A program made the position numbers and the translations under genes. This document shows positions 10,162 to 16,131 of a DNA stretch of 64,000 nt, in pieces. Source of the DNA: Spirochaetaceae bacterium 4572_59 (lineage in GTDB: Bacteria > Spirochaetota > Spirochaetia > DSM-2461). Numbering within the stretch: position 1 is the stretch's first letter; each line of letters begins with the position of its first letter. The DNA lies in contig NBMC01000024.1 of assembly GCA_002084805.1 (NCBI GenBank), forward strand, positions 1-64,000. The letters are read 5' to 3'. A model generated the notes under the pieces. It saw only the letters and a list, made by a program, of their open reading frames with translations. It did no database searches and was not told where the DNA came from.

Positions 10162-12579
10162 TCAGCTCATTTTCAGGGGAAATCCCGCTTTTTTCAGGGT
10201 TTCCACGACCTTATCCTCTGCTTCCCTGATAAAGTCTCCCGAAAGAGTTTTATCAGGATCACTGAAAGAGGTCCTGACTGTAATAGTCTTCTGATCATCC
10301 GACAGCTGAAAAACATCCACAATCTTCACCCAGTCCAGCTCTTTCATCTTCATTCTTCCCATGGCTTTTACCACATCCTCAACGGGAGTACGGCTCTCAG
10401 CCACAACGGTACAGTCAAAGGTAGAAGAGGGAAACTTGGCCAGAGGCTTATACCTGGTCTTGTCTTTCATTTTCTTGTCCTGGAAGTCTGTCAGGTCCAG
10501 AATGGCCATAACCAACTGTCCCTTGATCTTGAATCTCCGACAAACCAGAGGGTGTACGGAAGTAATAAAACCGCAGCTTCTTCCCATCACCTGAATATCC
10601 AAGTAATCCGAAGGGTGACGTCCCGGCCACTTTTCCGGCAGCAGGGGATTCTGTTTATTGTATCCTGTAATAATCCTGTATGGGAGGTTCAGGGAGTTCA
10701 TCAGTCCTTCTATTGTGTCAGACACCTGCAGAAAGGGAGATTTTTTCTTATCATAGAAAACCACAGCAAGCTGGTAACGTTCTTTCGAAAACTCTTTTTC
10801 ATCCTGCCGATAAACTCTTCCCATCTCAAACATCCTGAAGGAACTCCATGTTTTCTGATTGAGAGACGCAGTATTCAACATACTGGGTATCATGGAGGGA
10901 CGCATTCTGTCAGATTCCGGACTCATAGCATTAAGCAGAACAAGTTTTTCATTCTTCTCAGGCCAGAAAGCCTTATCCAGAAGTTTTTCCCCCACCATGG
11001 GATAGGTCATGATTTCCAGAGATTTCCCGCTGTAAACCATATAATCTTTGATTTTCCGGGACATCTGAAGCGCTTCGGACAAACGGACCGCCGTAATAGC
11101 ATTCATAGGAGAGGCAGGAGTAATATTGTCATATCCGATAATTCTCCCGATCTCTTCGATAATGTCGGCTTCACATTCAATATCCTTGGTAGAACGATAG
11201 GAGGGAACCGTAACAGTCAGAGAATCTTCATCCTGAGCTATTGCAAAGTCCAGAGACTCCAGAATGCGGACGACCTCAGCCTGAGGAATATCCTTACCCA
11301 GAACCTGGCAGACTCTTCCGGCTGATATTGTAATGACCAGAGGAGTATACTCAGGCATATTATCTTCAACAATTCCGCCCACGACAGCTGCCTCAGGGCA
11401 ACTTTCTTTTATCAGTTCAACAAGACGGTAGAGTGTTTTTTCAAGCATCTGGCTGTCCAAAGATTTCTCATATCGCTGCAGGGCATCTGTTCTCAAACCC
11501 AGACGGGTTGAGGTCCGGCGGACTTCCGCATCCACCCAGTTGGCGGCTTCCAGAAAAATACGGCTTGTTGTATCGGCAATACCGCTATGCAGTCCTCCCA
11601 TAATTCCGGCAATACTGGCAGGTCCTTCCGCATCACAGACCATGGTGTCAGAAGGAATCATATCCCGTTCCACTTCATCCAGGGTTGTAAACTTCATATT
11701 TTCCCCGGCTCTTTTAACGATGATCTTTCCGCCGCGGTTGGTCTCCCGGTCAAAAATATGATTCGGTATACCCAGTTCCAGCATAACGTAATTGGAAATA
11801 TCTACAATATTGTTGATTGGACGCATTCCACAGGCGGTCAGACGGTCCTGCATCCATTTAGGACTGCTCTTAATGGTAATATTATCCATGGAAAGACCTT
11901 TAAATCCAAGATTGGCCGAGTCTTTCTCCACTTCAATTGTAACAGGAGGATTTTCATTGCTAAACCAGCTCTGAACCTTTTTCTCCCACTCAGGGCCGAA
12001 GGGATTCTTCAGCTCTTTATGAAATACGGCGGCAAATTCCCGGGCCATTCCATAATGTCCCCAGAGATCAGGACGGTGGGTGATGGATTTATTATCGATA
12101 TCGAAAAGGATATCACCCTTCTCTCCAAGGTACTCTGCAATTGAAATACCAAGAGGAGTATCCTCCGGAAAGATCTTCAAGCCGGAATCGTCATCTCCAA
12201 TCTCCAGTTCTGTTTCACTGCAGAGCATCCCCTCAGACATAACACCACGGATTTTTTTGGGAACCAGAGTGAATCCTTCGGCAAAAGTTGTTCCAAGAGG
12301 AGCGTAGGGCACTTTTTCCCCGATGACAACATTAGGCGCACCACAGACAACTTCCCGACTATCTTTCCCGTCGGTAAATTTCACCAGATGGAGATGGTCG
12401 GAATCAGGATGATCCTCAATCCCGGTAACCTCTACAATCCGAACCTTTTCCTGCAGTTCCCCTGTGGTTTTAACTTCTTCCACCTCACAGGTGGCCATGG
12501 TAAAACGAACAGCCAGCTCTTCCGGGGGAAGATCCGGCAACTCCACATAATCTTTAATCCAGTCTATTGATATATACAT
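10162..12579 (-). CDS. pheT: Phenylalanyl-tRNA synthetase beta subunit
   Basis: 805 residues, full length. Starts MYISIDWIKDYVELPD; an EMAP/tRNA-binding domain follows at about 40-150 (HPDSDHLHLVKFTDG, EVVCGAPNV). The B3/4 editing region (NNIVDISNYVMLELG) and B5 domain lie in the middle, and the C-terminal anticodon-binding FDX-ACB domain occupies about 710-805. It forms the alpha2-beta2 enzyme with PheS and attaches Phe to tRNA-Phe. It lies 14 nt after pheS and shares the pheS leader, so it should be under the same attenuation. Confidence 0.97.
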   Translation of the reverse strand: MYISIDWIKDYVELPDLPPEELAVRFTMATCEVEEVKTTGELQEKVRIVEVTGIEDHPDSDHLHLVKFTDGKDSREVVCGAPNVVIGEKVPYAPLGTTFAEGFTLVPKKIRGVMSEGMLCSETELEIGDDDSGLKIFPEDTPLGISIAEYLGEKGDILFDIDNKSITHRPDLWGHYGMAREFAAVFHKELKNPFGPEWEKKVQSWFSNENPPVTIEVEKDSANLGFKGLSMDNITIKSSPKWMQDRLTACGMRPINNIVDISNYVMLELGIPNHIFDRETNRGGKIIVKRAGENMKFTTLDEVERDMIPSDTMVCDAEGPASIAGIMGGLHSGIADTTSRIFLEAANWVDAEVRRTSTRLGLRTDALQRYEKSLDSQMLEKTLYRLVELIKESCPEAAVVGGIVEDNMPEYTPLVITISAGRVCQVLGKDIPQAEVVRILESLDFAIAQDEDSLTVTVPSYRSTKDIECEADIIEEIGRIIGYDNITPASPMNAITAVRLSEALQMSRKIKDYMVYSGKSLEIMTYPMVGEKLLDKAFWPEKNEKLVLLNAMSPESDRMRPSMIPSMLNTASLNQKTWSSFRMFEMGRVYRQDEKEFSKERYQLAVVFYDKKKSPFLQVSDTIEGLMNSLNLPYRIITGYNKQNPLLPEKWPGRHPSDYLDIQVMGRSCGFITSVHPLVCRRFKIKGQLVMAILDLTDFQDKKMKDKTRYKPLAKFPSSTFDCTVVAESRTPVEDVVKAMGRMKMKELDWVKIVDVFQLSDDQKTITVRTSFSDPDKTLSGDFIREAEDKVVETLKKAGFPLKMS

Positions 12580-12593
12580 AATTGATTCCCCTG

Positions 12594-13637
12594 TCAGTAC
12601 GCTTTAAATTGTGAGACGAATGAAAGATTTCCGCTGTGAAGATGCCGGATATCATCAATTCCATAACGCATCATAACAAGGCGATCCAGTCCGAGACCGA
12701 AGGCAAAACCATTATACTCTTCAGGATCCACACCACCGCTTTTCAGGACATTGGGATGAACCATACCGCAGGGCAACAGTTCCACCCAACCGGACTGCTT
12801 ACAAACGGAACAACCCTTTCCACCACAGATGAGACATTCAATATCCAGCTCAAAACCGGGTTCCACAAAGGGAAAGAATCCCGGACGGAGACGAACGTTG
12901 ACTTCTTTCTGGAAGATCTCACTCAAGAGTGTCTTCATAAAGTAGATCAGATTGGCAACGGAAATATCCTTTCCCACCATCATTCCTTCCAGCTGGTGGA
13001 AAGCCGCTTCATGGGACGCATCGGTAGCCTCACAGCGGAAAACCTTACCGGGTCCTATAAATTTAAAAGGGGGTTTACGAGTTTCCATACCGCGGGCCTG
13101 GATACAAGACGTATGAGTTCTTAGAAGGTGCTGCATATCGGAAAACCAGAAGGTATCCTGCATATCACGGGCCGGATGAGTATCGGGAATATTCAGTGCT
13201 TCAAAGTTATGATAATCATCTTCAATATGGGGTCCGTCCAGGATCTCAAATCCCATGGAAAGGAAAATATCCTCAATCTCTCTTTGAATGATACTTACCG
13301 GATGATATCCGACGGCACTCAGGCCGTTGTCCCTGACAGAACCACGGAAACTTACATCCTGCCAATTCTTCATCAGACCTTCGTTGATTTCAGACAGTTC
13401 CAGATGAGTCATCTTTTTCTCGACACCCGCCAGTACGGCCTCTTTCAGTTGATTGGATTTCATTCCCAGAGATTTTTTAACCTCGGGAGATGCGTCTTTC
13501 AGGGATTTTAGGATAGAATTCAACTTTCCTTTTTTCCCAAGGAAATCCGCCTTAAGGTTTACCAGTTCCGAACGGTTTTTTACCGTTTCCAGAGCATGAG
13601 CAAACTCGTTTTTCAGATCTTCCAGATTCTGTTTCAT
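12594..13637 (-). CDS. pheS: Phenylalanyl-tRNA synthetase alpha subunit
   Basis: About 347 residues; catalytic class II subunit. N-terminal coiled coil (about 1-90), then motif 2/3 core: FEILDGPHIEDDYHNFEALN, THPARDMQDTF, and GLGLDRLVMMRYGIDDIR at the C-terminus. Cys-rich CLICGGKGCSVCKQSGW is typical of bacterial PheS. A longer frame extends to 13703, but the ATG at 13637 (MKQNLEDLKNEF) has a good AGAGG site and matches family N-termini; the upstream 22 codons lie in the leader RNA. Regulated by a Phe-codon attenuator upstream (13702-13898). Confidence 0.97.
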   Translation of the reverse strand: MKQNLEDLKNEFAHALETVKNRSELVNLKADFLGKKGKLNSILKSLKDASPEVKKSLGMKSNQLKEAVLAGVEKKMTHLELSEINEGLMKNWQDVSFRGSVRDNGLSAVGYHPVSIIQREIEDIFLSMGFEILDGPHIEDDYHNFEALNIPDTHPARDMQDTFWFSDMQHLLRTHTSCIQARGMETRKPPFKFIGPGKVFRCEATDASHEAAFHQLEGMMVGKDISVANLIYFMKTLLSEIFQKEVNVRLRPGFFPFVEPGFELDIECLICGGKGCSVCKQSGWVELLPCGMVHPNVLKSGGVDPEEYNGFAFGLGLDRLVMMRYGIDDIRHLHSGNLSFVSQFKAY

Positions 13638-13701
13638 CCCGGACCTCTTATTTATTAAAATATAAAAATTACTATTAAAACGCCGCAAACGACTATTATG
13701 C

Positions 13702-13758
13702 AAAAAAAAAAGAGCCGCAGCCGGTCTCCATCCCTCGGGAAGAAACCCTCTGCGGCTC
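13702..13758 (-). terminator. pheST attenuator (intrinsic terminator in leader)
   Basis: On the minus strand GAGCCGCAG (13750-13758) pairs perfectly with CTGCGGCTC (13712-13720), followed by ten T residues. It lies between the Phe-rich leader peptide and pheS, the position expected for a transcription attenuator. A short hairpin TGAAC-TGAC-GTTCA lies just after the leader stop. The exact antiterminator pairing was not resolved by eye. Confidence 0.85.
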
Positions 13759-13775
13759 AGCTGAACGTCAGTTCA

Positions 13776-13835
13776 CTATGAAAGCCCCGGTCCCTTCCTG
13801 CTCATAAAGCTAAAAAAGAAAAAGAAACTAAACAT
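13776..13835 (-). CDS. pheST leader peptide (Phe-rich, PheM-like)
   Basis: A 19-codon frame encoding MFSFFFFFSFMSRKGPGLS; seven of its first ten codons are Phe. It begins about 28 nt after the predicted transcription start and ends 17 nt before the attenuator stem. The layout parallels E. coli pheM upstream of pheST: scarce charged tRNA-Phe stalls the ribosome on the Phe codons, which should favour readthrough into pheS. A run of T residues, not a clear Shine-Dalgarno, precedes the ATG. The peptide itself is probably not functional. Confidence 0.85.
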   Translation of the reverse strand: MFSFFFFFSFMSRKGPGLS

Positions 13836-13869
13836 AAAAAAAAAACTGGCTTTGTTCATATTGAAAGAT

Positions 13870-13898
13870 ATTGTATCGGGAGCAAATTATCATGTCAA
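13870..13898 (-). promoter_or_regulatory. pheST promoter
   Basis: On the minus strand TTGACA (13893-13898), 17-nt spacer, TACAAT (13870-13875). Predicted start near 13863, upstream of the leader peptide. Confidence 0.8.
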
Positions 13899-14072: not shown

Positions 14073-15104
14073 ATGGGTAAGCCTTTATTAGGAAAAAATA
14101 TTTTCCTGACGGGAATGCTGCTCATATCAACTATTATGAGTGCTTGCGCAGTAGACAAAAGTAATCTGAGCGATGGTTTATACGCTCTGATCAATACAAA
14201 CAGAGGAGAGATTCTGATCTCTCTTGAATACGAAAAGACCCCTTTGACAGTTATCAACTTTAGCGGACTGGCAGAAGGAAAGATGGAGACAGCCGTAAAG
14301 GACGGTCCCTTCTATGACGGTCTGAAGTTCCACCGTGTCATCGAAAATTTCATGATCCAGGGTGGAGATCCTCAGGGGAACGGAACAGGCGGTCCCGGAT
14401 ACAAATTCGAAGACGAGATTGATGATTCCCTTCAGTTCGACGGACCTGGAAAACTGGCAATGGCCAATTCCGGACCCGGCACAAACGGTAGCCAGTTTTT
14501 TATTACTCATGTAGAAACACCCTGGCTGCAGGGAAAACACACTATTTTCGGAACAGTTCTTGAGGGTCAGAATGTTGTAGATATGATCAAACAGAATGAT
14601 TCTATCAAAACAGTCGAAATTATCCGTGTAGGAGCCAAAGCAGAGGCGTTCCAAAATGATCAGAAGGCCTTTGATTCCTACAAGGCTGTTCAGGCCGCGG
14701 CCTCTCAGAAAAAAATGGAAGAATCTCAGAAATCTGTCATTGAAGAGATTAATGCCAAATGGCCCGATGCTCAGATCAGTGATTCCGGAATCCGCTATAT
14801 TATTGAAGTAGAAGGATCCGGAGACAAACCTTCCATCGGAACAAAAGTAACCGCCCATTACACAGGTATGTTTATGGATGGAAAGGTCTTTGATAGCTCC
14901 GTACAGAGAGGAACTCCCTTTGACGTACAGGTAGGTGTAGGGCAGGTAATTTCCGGTTGGGACGAAACTCTTCTGGATATGAAAAAAGGCGAGAAGAGAA
15001 CCATTATTCTTCCTCCCGAACTTGCCTACGGCAGCAGCGGAGCCGGCGGTGTGATTCCCCCCAATGCTTGGTTGGTATTTGAAGTGGAACTGCTGGATTT
15101 CTAA
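14073..15104 (+). CDS. Cyclophilin-FKBP fusion peptidyl-prolyl isomerase lipoprotein
   Basis: 343 residues with a lipoprotein-type signal (lipobox around IMSAC near residue 25). Residues about 38-190 are a cyclophilin domain with all catalytic positions seen: [42 protein letters not shown] helical linker ([14 protein letters not shown]) leads to an FKBP domain (about 235-343): [43 protein letters not shown]. It should catalyse prolyl isomerisation of exported proteins at the cell envelope. AGGAGG precedes the start. A tandem paralogue follows after 31 nt. Confidence 0.92.
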
Positions 15105-15135: not shown

Positions 15136-16131
15136 ATGAAACGTATTCTATTTTTTATTACAAGCCTGCTTGTCAGCTCGTTTTTTCTGACGTCTGAAGA
15201 AGCTGTTGAGTTGGATAATGGTGTTTATGCCAAGATATCCACTCAAAAGGGTGAACTCGTTTTTGAACTGGATTATAAGAACCTTCCCCTGACTGTGTCA
15301 AACTTTGTTGCCCAGGCAGAAGGGAAAATGGGTACCCCCCTTTATCAGGATCTCTCCGTTTACCGGGTCGTCCCCGGTTACGCCCTCTTCTCAGGAGATC
15401 CTGATGGAAGCGGAACCGGCGGTGCAGATTATACCTTCTCCAGAGAAGAAGGATCTTCCTTTTCCAACGGGACAGCCGGGGCTCTGACAATGGAATCCCG
15501 TAATGGAGAAGATCATGGAAGCCGCTTTATGATCCTTTTAAAAGGAGACTCCTTTCTTGATCGGAAATACACATCTTTCGGCCGTCTTATACGCGGTGTG
15601 GAAAAGCTCAATAAAATCAAAGCCGGGCAAAAAATCTCTATTGAGATCCTGAGAATCGGCTCTGAAGCGAACGCCTTCCAGCCTGACAAAGACAGTATAA
15701 CAGCTATGATTGAACAGGCCAGAGAAGCTGAAAGACTACAGTTCAGCGAAAAGAACCCAGAGGTAGCTGGTATACTTGAATCCCTTGGTGATGGGCTTAA
15801 GCAAAGTGAAACCGGCATATTTTATGCTATTCACAAAGAAGGAAAAGGGGGCAATCCCCGTCCGGGCGACACGGTACGAATGCACTATTCCGGACATCTG
15901 GTAACAGGTCAGGAATTTGACAACTCATACCAGCGAGGCGAACCGTTCTCCTTTACCATCGGAAAAGATGGTGTTATTCCAGGATGGATAGAAACAGCCC
16001 TCAGTATGCAAGCGGGAGAACAGAGGACTATTATTCTTCCCCCCGAACTGGGATACGGTGATAATGGTTACGGCCCTATCCCCGCAGATTCCTGGCTGAT
16101 TTTCGATATTGAACTGATTGATTTTAAATAA
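15136..16131 (+). CDS. Second cyclophilin-FKBP protein, cyclophilin site degenerate
   Basis: 331 residues with an N-terminal signal peptide (MKRILFFITSLLVSSFFL) and no lipobox. It has the same two-domain order as its neighbour, from which it arose by tandem duplication. In the cyclophilin half most active-site positions have changed: FHR-x-FMxQGG has become VYR...YALFSG, MANxG has become MESRNG, QFF has become RFM, and the W and H of PWLxGKH are now F and Y. Only the catalytic Arg remains. The FKBP half is intact (MHYSGHL, EFDNS, VIPGWIE, LGYGDNGYG, IFDIELI). So only the FKBP domain is likely to be catalytic. Confidence 0.9.
   Translation: MKRILFFITSLLVSSFFLTSEEAVELDNGVYAKISTQKGELVFELDYKNLPLTVSNFVAQAEGKMGTPLYQDLSVYRVVPGYALFSGDPDGSGTGGADYTFSREEGSSFSNGTAGALTMESRNGEDHGSRFMILLKGDSFLDRKYTSFGRLIRGVEKLNKIKAGQKISIEILRIGSEANAFQPDKDSITAMIEQAREAERLQFSEKNPEVAGILESLGDGLKQSETGIFYAIHKEGKGGNPRPGDTVRMHYSGHLVTGQEFDNSYQRGEPFSFTIGKDGVIPGWIETALSMQAGEQRTIILPPELGYGDNGYGPIPADSWLIFDIELIDFK

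Follow-up and report, generated by a model that had tools for sequence, protein, structure and literature searches.

Expression of pheST, which encodes phenylalanyl-tRNA synthetase (PheRS), is governed in Escherichia coli by the pheM leader, in which a Phe-rich leader peptide led by a Shine-Dalgarno sequence precedes a terminator and an alternative antiterminator. Leaderless short open reading frames (ORFs) with poly-Cys runs were reportedly described in mycobacteria by Canestrari et al. in 2020; in these, as predicted for the locus described here, an operon is preceded by a leaderless ORF in which the regulating codon occurs in a run, but the phylum and the amino acid differ. For the ilvBNC attenuator of Corynebacterium glutamicum, leaderless initiation is discussed in excerpts of PMC11857589, where the first hairpin is described as preventing translation initiation in the state in which the terminator forms. 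That attenuator differs from the present one in serving branched-chain amino acid biosynthesis in Actinobacteria and in involving no tRNA synthetase. The uORFC-13-1 motif, in the excerpted description of PMC8632094, is likewise a proposed Phe-sensing upstream ORF ahead of a terminator, but it precedes aroF in Acholeplasma, has a ribosome-binding site and is required to contain only 'at least one' Phe codon. An excerpt of PMC1262725 names pheST as a classical attenuator of gamma-proteobacteria. Leader-peptide attenuation in general is known mainly from Proteobacteria and Actinobacteria (in part from excerpts of PMC4833913), and for Spirochaetales the same excerpts deal with leader genes near structural genes, not with attenuators. 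The main text of PMC2965389 mentions neither spirochaetes nor pheS, and our literature search, which is weak evidence, found no spirochaete pheST attenuator and no leaderless Phe leader.

Here we describe the region upstream of pheST in a 64 kb stretch of spirochaete DNA, the whole of which is referred to as the window. With a probability of roughly 0.87, comparison of sequences points to a ribosome-mediated attenuator of pheST transcription that senses Phe-tRNA and whose leader peptide is predicted to be leaderless. The preliminary description of this DNA had proposed attenuation of the pheM-pheST kind, and the conserved frame of the Phe run, the terminator and two coevolving helices support it. 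The likeness to E. coli is one of layout, and the two differ in that only 2-6 nt are predicted to precede the ATG in the spirochaete transcript and that region 1 of the leader includes or adjoins the AUG. What appears novel over the pheM-pheST kind is this predicted leaderless start and the unexpected spread, with attenuation kept across eight lineages of one spirochaete class in predicted leaderless form. The system offers a compact test case for the coupling of leaderless initiation to transcription attenuation.

Organization of the pheST upstream region

The minus strand carries, in this order, a promoter, a leader ORF, a terminator stem, a T10 tract, pheS and pheT (Table 1). The consensus promoter and the GC stem with its T10 had been noted in the preliminary description, and both held up, the former read directly and the latter recovered by folding (-32.4 kcal/mol). 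That description also gave a Phe leader of 19 codons; the Phe run is present, but the true ORF is longer and the 19-codon form starts at an internal ATG (13835). The first ATG was overlooked there, and with it the leaderless geometry.

Table 1 Features of the pheST locus in the window, with one further locus found in another genome
Feature	Position	Strand	Remarks
Sigma-70-type promoter TTGACA-17-TACAAT	13870..13898	minus	-35 TTGACA 13898-13893, -10 TACAAT 13875-13870
Leader peptide ORF, 27 codons, 10 Phe	13776..13859	minus	ATG 10 nt past -10 hexamer; peptide MNKASFFFMFSFFFFFSFMSRKGPGLS
Phe codon tract (TTT/TTC)	13806..13844	minus	
Region 1 core AAAGCC, 5' arm of predicted 1:2 helix	13848..13853	minus	Outer pairs include AUG
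Region 2 part for pairing with region 1, GGCTTT	13781..13786	minus	
Region 2 part for pairing with region 3, GGAAGGGACC, predicted antiterminator 5' arm	13789..13798	minus	Antiterminator core: 13798-13789 paired with 13747-13738
Region 3 core GGTTTCTTCC, common to antiterminator and terminator	13738..13747	minus	
Terminator stem-loop (3:4)	13712..13758	minus	By folding
T10 tract of terminator	13702..13711	minus	
pheS, bacterial-type PheRS alpha subunit	12594..13637	minus	ATG 13637; TIGR00468 over cut-off
pheT, bacterial-type PheRS beta subunit	10162..12579	minus	TIGR00472 over cut-off
TrpX-like locus of G272	L245 328-2508		Found via covariance model R1

The promoter matches 11 of 12 consensus positions and is the second best of the 12 promoter-like sites listed in 6 kb, where shuffles gave 9.0, such sites being frequent by chance. 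The gene upstream of pheST starts at 14073 on the plus strand and is divergent, and pheST therefore needs a promoter in the intergenic gap. A simple terminator scan did not list the window terminator, probably because the stem has interior bulges. Only one in 200 shuffles of the leader folded as well as the leader itself (z -3.4). ORFs with at least nine Phe in 12 codons were absent from 40 dinucleotide shuffles of the 64 kb window. The only other window ORF that reached at least six Phe in 12 codons (60419, minus strand, seven in 12) was considered as a second Phe leader and rejected, as it lies antisense within an aspartokinase-like ORF. The divergent neighbor is a cyclophilin-FKBP fusion and the first of two tandem plus-strand genes (14073-15104 and 15136-16131), each encoding a cyclophilin domain fused to an FKBP domain (Pfam).

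Distribution of the leader among spirochaetes

In order to place the leader in its class, Spirochaetia, 394 genomes were searched with the window PheS at E <= 1e-50, with a query that started at 13658, seven in-frame codons upstream of the likely ATG. A bacterial-type PheS was found in 46 genomes, and the remaining 348 had no match at this threshold. This agrees in part with the surprise that the preliminary description expressed at attenuation in a spirochaete, as does the result of an ORF scan of 20 chosen pheS upstream regions from other classes of the phylum, which found no Phe leader. Within up to 700 nt upstream of pheS, the ORF scan recovered a Phe-run leader in 24 of the 46 PheS-bearing genomes, and a covariance model (R1), for which 18 of the 24 leaders served as input, added that of G002, near the end of another contig, for a total of 25. 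Comparison with the pheS leaders of related spirochaetes had been suggested in the preliminary description, which took their lack of a Phe-rich frame and terminator as an argument against attenuation; all six genomes of the window's genus carry the Phe-run leader, an outcome in favor of attenuation.

A Phe-poorer leader precedes pheS in five genomes of genus g2 (G011, G021, G023, G024, and G025), with a conserved SVYSxF, a terminator and only about three to four Phe codons. The covariance model matched four of these at pheS (G011, G023, G024, and G025). The g2 leaders may have decayed, may have been retuned or may act as arrest peptides. Counting either type, a leader is present in 30 of the 46 genomes. 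One genome (G016) was set apart with only 4 nt upstream of pheS, and no leader was found in the other 15 (G006, G008, G013, G015, G017, G029, G031, G045, G046, G056, G083, G097, G238, G288, and G294). A few of these may have been overlooked, because the readable upstream sequence of G029 is only 254 nt and the model misses known leaders. It failed to match four of the 24 (G007, G009, G020, and G054), all from lineages outside its training set, and its silence is therefore weak evidence. Across the 394 genomes it gave 50 matches at E <= 0.05, half of them at pheS. Twelve of the 25 matches away from pheS were read and two were kept, in G272 (C53, 41.3 bits) and G043 (C25, 30.7 bits); the other ten resembled chance terminators or U tracts.

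Reading frame and helices are conserved across lineages

The Phe tracts of the 24 leaders contain 258 codons, 198 of which are TTT or TTC. Among the 206 pyrimidine-only codons of these tracts, C is absent from codon position 1 and is found 8 times at position 2 and 59 times at position 3, a count somewhat biased by the choice of leaders for Phe richness. The near confinement of C to the third position indicates that a reading frame is kept, beyond a merely U-rich tract, which alone would hardly account for the lack of C at position 1.

Three regions were defined in each leader, comprising the start of the ORF (region 1), the stretch between the Phe run and the terminator (region 2), and the 5' arm of the terminator (region 3), and the pairing of each leader's own regions was compared with that of regions swapped across eight lineages, as grouped in the present analysis. 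Own 1:2 pairing averaged -16.8 kcal/mol versus -10.7 kcal/mol between lineages, and own 2:3 pairing -18.7 versus -13.9 kcal/mol. When lineage averages were permuted, values as low were reached by 1 of 40320 arrangements for 1:2 and by 2 of 40320 for 2:3, the true one included in each case. Leader by leader, own pairing was stronger than the average of the swaps in all 24 for 1:2 and in 20 of 24 for 2:3, the four weaker ones being G007, G012, G048, and G068; 2:3 pairing is weak across lineage B as a whole.

The antiterminator was also scored in an alignment of 18 leaders (A2) that excludes the six of lineages B and C. Paired cells made up 73.5% versus 70.2% in shuffles (8 of 500 as high), 12 cells had changed on both sides versus 4.3 (0 of 500), and the covariation score was 0.254 versus 0.172 (0 of 500). 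Two measures separated less clearly from the shuffles, with only 5 pairs changed on both sides versus 2.7 (43 of 500 as high) and 14 further pair types versus 12.2 (70 of 500). The true register scored above all slides of one to three columns, slide -1 coming close (0.231 versus 0.254). RNAalifold applied to the same alignment returned the terminator stem only, with compensatory changes in three of its eight pairs. By folding, a terminator-like stem followed by at least six T is present in all 24 leaders, with the pick for G012 corrected by hand.

The preliminary description had suggested folding the leader in search of an antiterminator, and the window transcript up to region 3 does fold as 2:3, while a longer transcript folds as 3:4. 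For the untranslated window transcript to region 3, the minimum-energy fold is 2:3 and not 1:2, and therefore the state without a ribosome would depend on 1:2 forming first. The predicted 1:2 duplexes involve the AUG in 22 of the 24 leaders, and in 15 of them all three of its bases are paired; ribosome loading could therefore be blocked by 1:2 as well. At the other end of the ORF, the position of the region 2 arm of 2:3 depends on the lineage. In lineages B and C it coincides with the leader stop codon or closely follows it; elsewhere it does not extend beyond that codon, except in G090 (3 nt past). Most or all of the arm would therefore be expected to be covered by a ribosome positioned on the stop codon.

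Promoter position predicts a leaderless leader

The best promoter in each of the 24 leaders matches 11 or 12 of 12 consensus positions, with a spacer of 16 or 17 nt, and the ATG lies 8-12 nt past the -10 hexamer in every case, most often 10. Transcription generally starts about 7 nt past a -10 hexamer. The predicted 5' untranslated region (UTR) is therefore about 2-6 nt long, and the leader is predicted to be leaderless in all 24 from promoter position. In six of them (G009, G012, G014, G030, G043, and G098) the spacing is partly the analyst's choice, because extra in-frame ATGs lie upstream and the one nearest the predicted start was taken. Across 26 genomes of the family, an exact consensus promoter is followed by an ATG 7-12 nt past the -10 hexamer at 26 sites, 6 of them pheS leaders, versus 6 in a reversed control. 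Leaderless transcripts have been reported, in excerpts of PMC5243855, to be common in another spirochaete, Leptospira interrogans, which makes the premise plausible. Three long ORFs in G010 (at L128, L152, and L153) also start 7-12 nt past an exact consensus promoter and by eye are two regulator-like and one DAHP-synthase-like; other leaderless messages are therefore likely in their family.

Proposed mechanism and alternatives

The codon-position bias and the coevolving 1:2 and 2:3 helices support classical attenuation, and the parts, found in conserved order, would act as follows. RNA polymerase would start a few nt ahead of the leader AUG, and a ribosome would load at the 5' end without a Shine-Dalgarno sequence, as the promoter geometry suggests. 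With charged tRNA-Phe scarce, the ribosome would stall in the Phe run and mask region 1, leaving region 2 to pair with region 3 as the antiterminator, and pheST would be transcribed. With charged tRNA-Phe plentiful, the ribosome would reach the stop codon and mask region 2; 3:4 would then fold, and transcription would stop in the U tract. Without a loaded ribosome, 1:2 would form, could conceal the AUG and would leave 3:4 to terminate. Transcript ends, leader translation, stalling and the Phe response are what we infer from this arrangement.

The leader might instead be translated from a longer 5' UTR, off a promoter further upstream, in which case the locus would be an attenuator but not a leaderless one. 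The chance frequency of promoter-like sites leaves room for this, as do the Shine-Dalgarno-like motifs at most aromatic leader starts of another family (f9, below). The near-exact promoter and narrow ATG gap kept in 24 of 24 leaders (six ATGs chosen) argue against it, as does the excess of promoter-ATG pairs over the reversed control, and in the window the divergent gene leaves little room; we regard it as improbable. Less probable again is that arrest by the nascent peptide takes the place of stalling at specific codons, at least in g2, with its few Phe codons and conserved SVYS-x-F. The motif and the terminator are kept in all five g2 genomes with so few Phe codons, four of which the covariance model matches, but the leaders of other lineages have no such motif besides Phe, and the SVYS stretch may be kept as RNA.

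About as improbable as peptide arrest, and if anything slightly more so, is a U-rich leader with a constitutive terminator that acts through an RNA-binding protein, Rho or polymerase slippage, with the Phe codons as a by-product. The tract is indeed U-rich and the window leader has a run of ten U, but this account would predict neither the near limitation of C to third codon positions nor the coevolution of region 2 with regions 1 and 3, and a comparable layout with Tyr codons stands ahead of the TrpX-like genes of family f9. The preliminary description had held that a T-box or no control might be expected, and the excerpted text of PMC1262725 gives T-box riboswitches as the usual control of aminoacyl-tRNA synthetase genes in Firmicutes. 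Rfam gave no match to any family, T-box included, at the gathering threshold in the whole window, and ORF accounts for roughly half of the predicted transcript upstream of the T tract and the terminator for most of the rest; a T-box or other tRNA-binding leader is the least probable reading. The Phe-tRNA-sensing attenuator with a leaderless leader peptide remains our preferred reading.

PheS history and horizontal transfer

Of 98 relatives, 40 have a window-type PheS and 54 have weak matches only. The weak-match PheS of one of the latter (G033, 545 residues) scores 564 bits against NF003210 (cut-off 350), which we take to be archaeal-type PheS, and also passes TIGR00468. Its length agrees with the description of the archaeal type excerpted from PMC3191353, in which an archaeal origin of PheRS in Spirochaeta, Borrelia and Treponema is proposed as a uniting character. 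Yet 46 of the 394 class genomes have the bacterial type, 30 of them with the leader. None of the 40 genomes with window-type PheS has a second weak match of the G033 kind. The PheS match of G021 is in two long pieces on two contigs. On a midpoint-rooted PheS tree of 72 rows, with some long branches and with the G002 and g2 leaders unlabelled, the leader requires 5 changes versus 21.0 in shuffles.

Two members of the Desulfobulbia, Desulfopila sp. IMCC35008 (L038) and Desulfogranum marinum (L037), have a PheS that groups with those of G054, G014 and G009 (100/99), with poorly supported order inside the group. In a search of 78 genomes of Desulfopila's class, the PheS of the 75 other matching genomes was 41-46% identical to that of Desulfopila. 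By eye, Desulfopila has a Phe-run leader and terminator resembling those of the G054/G014/G009 lineage and no clear promoter at the usual distance. In Desulfogranum, also by eye, a promoter and the terminator flank a shorter stretch of Phe codons, but no ATG stands at the expected position of the leader. A scan of related pheS loci covered 77 of 80, several with less than 300 nt upstream, after exclusion of three with almost no upstream DNA. It flagged Desulfopila, the sole Phe leader kept from it outside spirochaetes, and left Desulfogranum unflagged; four other Phe-rich ORFs outside spirochaetes were dropped, L048 on its upstream DNA and L071, L079, and L098 on the peptide alone. The simplest reading is that pheST was transferred together with the leader, either by a spirochaete or out of a source common to both groups. 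Horizontal movement of the genes along with their leader seems to occur.

A more speculative extension, which we hold only tentatively and think rather less likely than its converse, is that the switch forms a self-contained mobile pheST cassette, taken up by scattered Spirochaetia, where it would have replaced archaeal-type PheRS, and passed on to Desulfobulbia, and that it acts as a dual sensor of charged tRNA-Phe and of the capacity for leaderless (70S) initiation. The dual sensing is suggested because the 1:2 helix lies over or beside the AUG at the 5' end.

Other leaders in the class

The covariance model match in G272, of family f9, led to an aromatic leader ahead of a gene for a TrpX-like ABC substrate-binding protein (Table 1), which scored 224.7 bits against NF041285, below the cut-off of 390, and was over the cut-off for PF04392. 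A search of 61 f9 genomes for TrpX-like genes gave 25 matches, from which four distant (G091, G141, G149, and G161), two partial (G682) and one with short upstream sequence (G674) were excluded. A Tyr- or Phe-rich leader and then a T run were found at 14 of the remaining 18 genes, and reading found no leader at the other four (G076, G252, G358, and G687). Phe-rich ORFs flagged in front of this gene in G358 and G687 were dismissed on visual inspection. Of the tandem TrpX-like genes in G272, and likewise in G675, one is preceded by a Tyr run and the other by a Phe-rich run. Attenuation is therefore not foreign to spirochaetes. A Shine-Dalgarno-like motif precedes 11 of 13 f9 leader starts, with start codons assigned by eye, and is absent in G307 and G311. 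The f9 leaders (L245, L254-L278) resemble an additional attenuation system with mostly Shine-Dalgarno-led starts, which would serve the uptake of aromatic amino acids.

Leaders for His and branched-chain amino acids were sought in the window's genus in a loose scan of 16 loci, comprising hisG (6) and the best ten ilvB-family matches; the weak, scattered ORFs that it returned shared no run common to genomes and were rejected. The second match kept from the covariance model, in G043 (L280; L286 11276-12196, minus strand), is a possibly leaderless Phe/Tyr leader, MNANRSYFTSYFFFFYFAWYAPGPVCGRSSK, with a terminator ahead of an HMGL-like gene.
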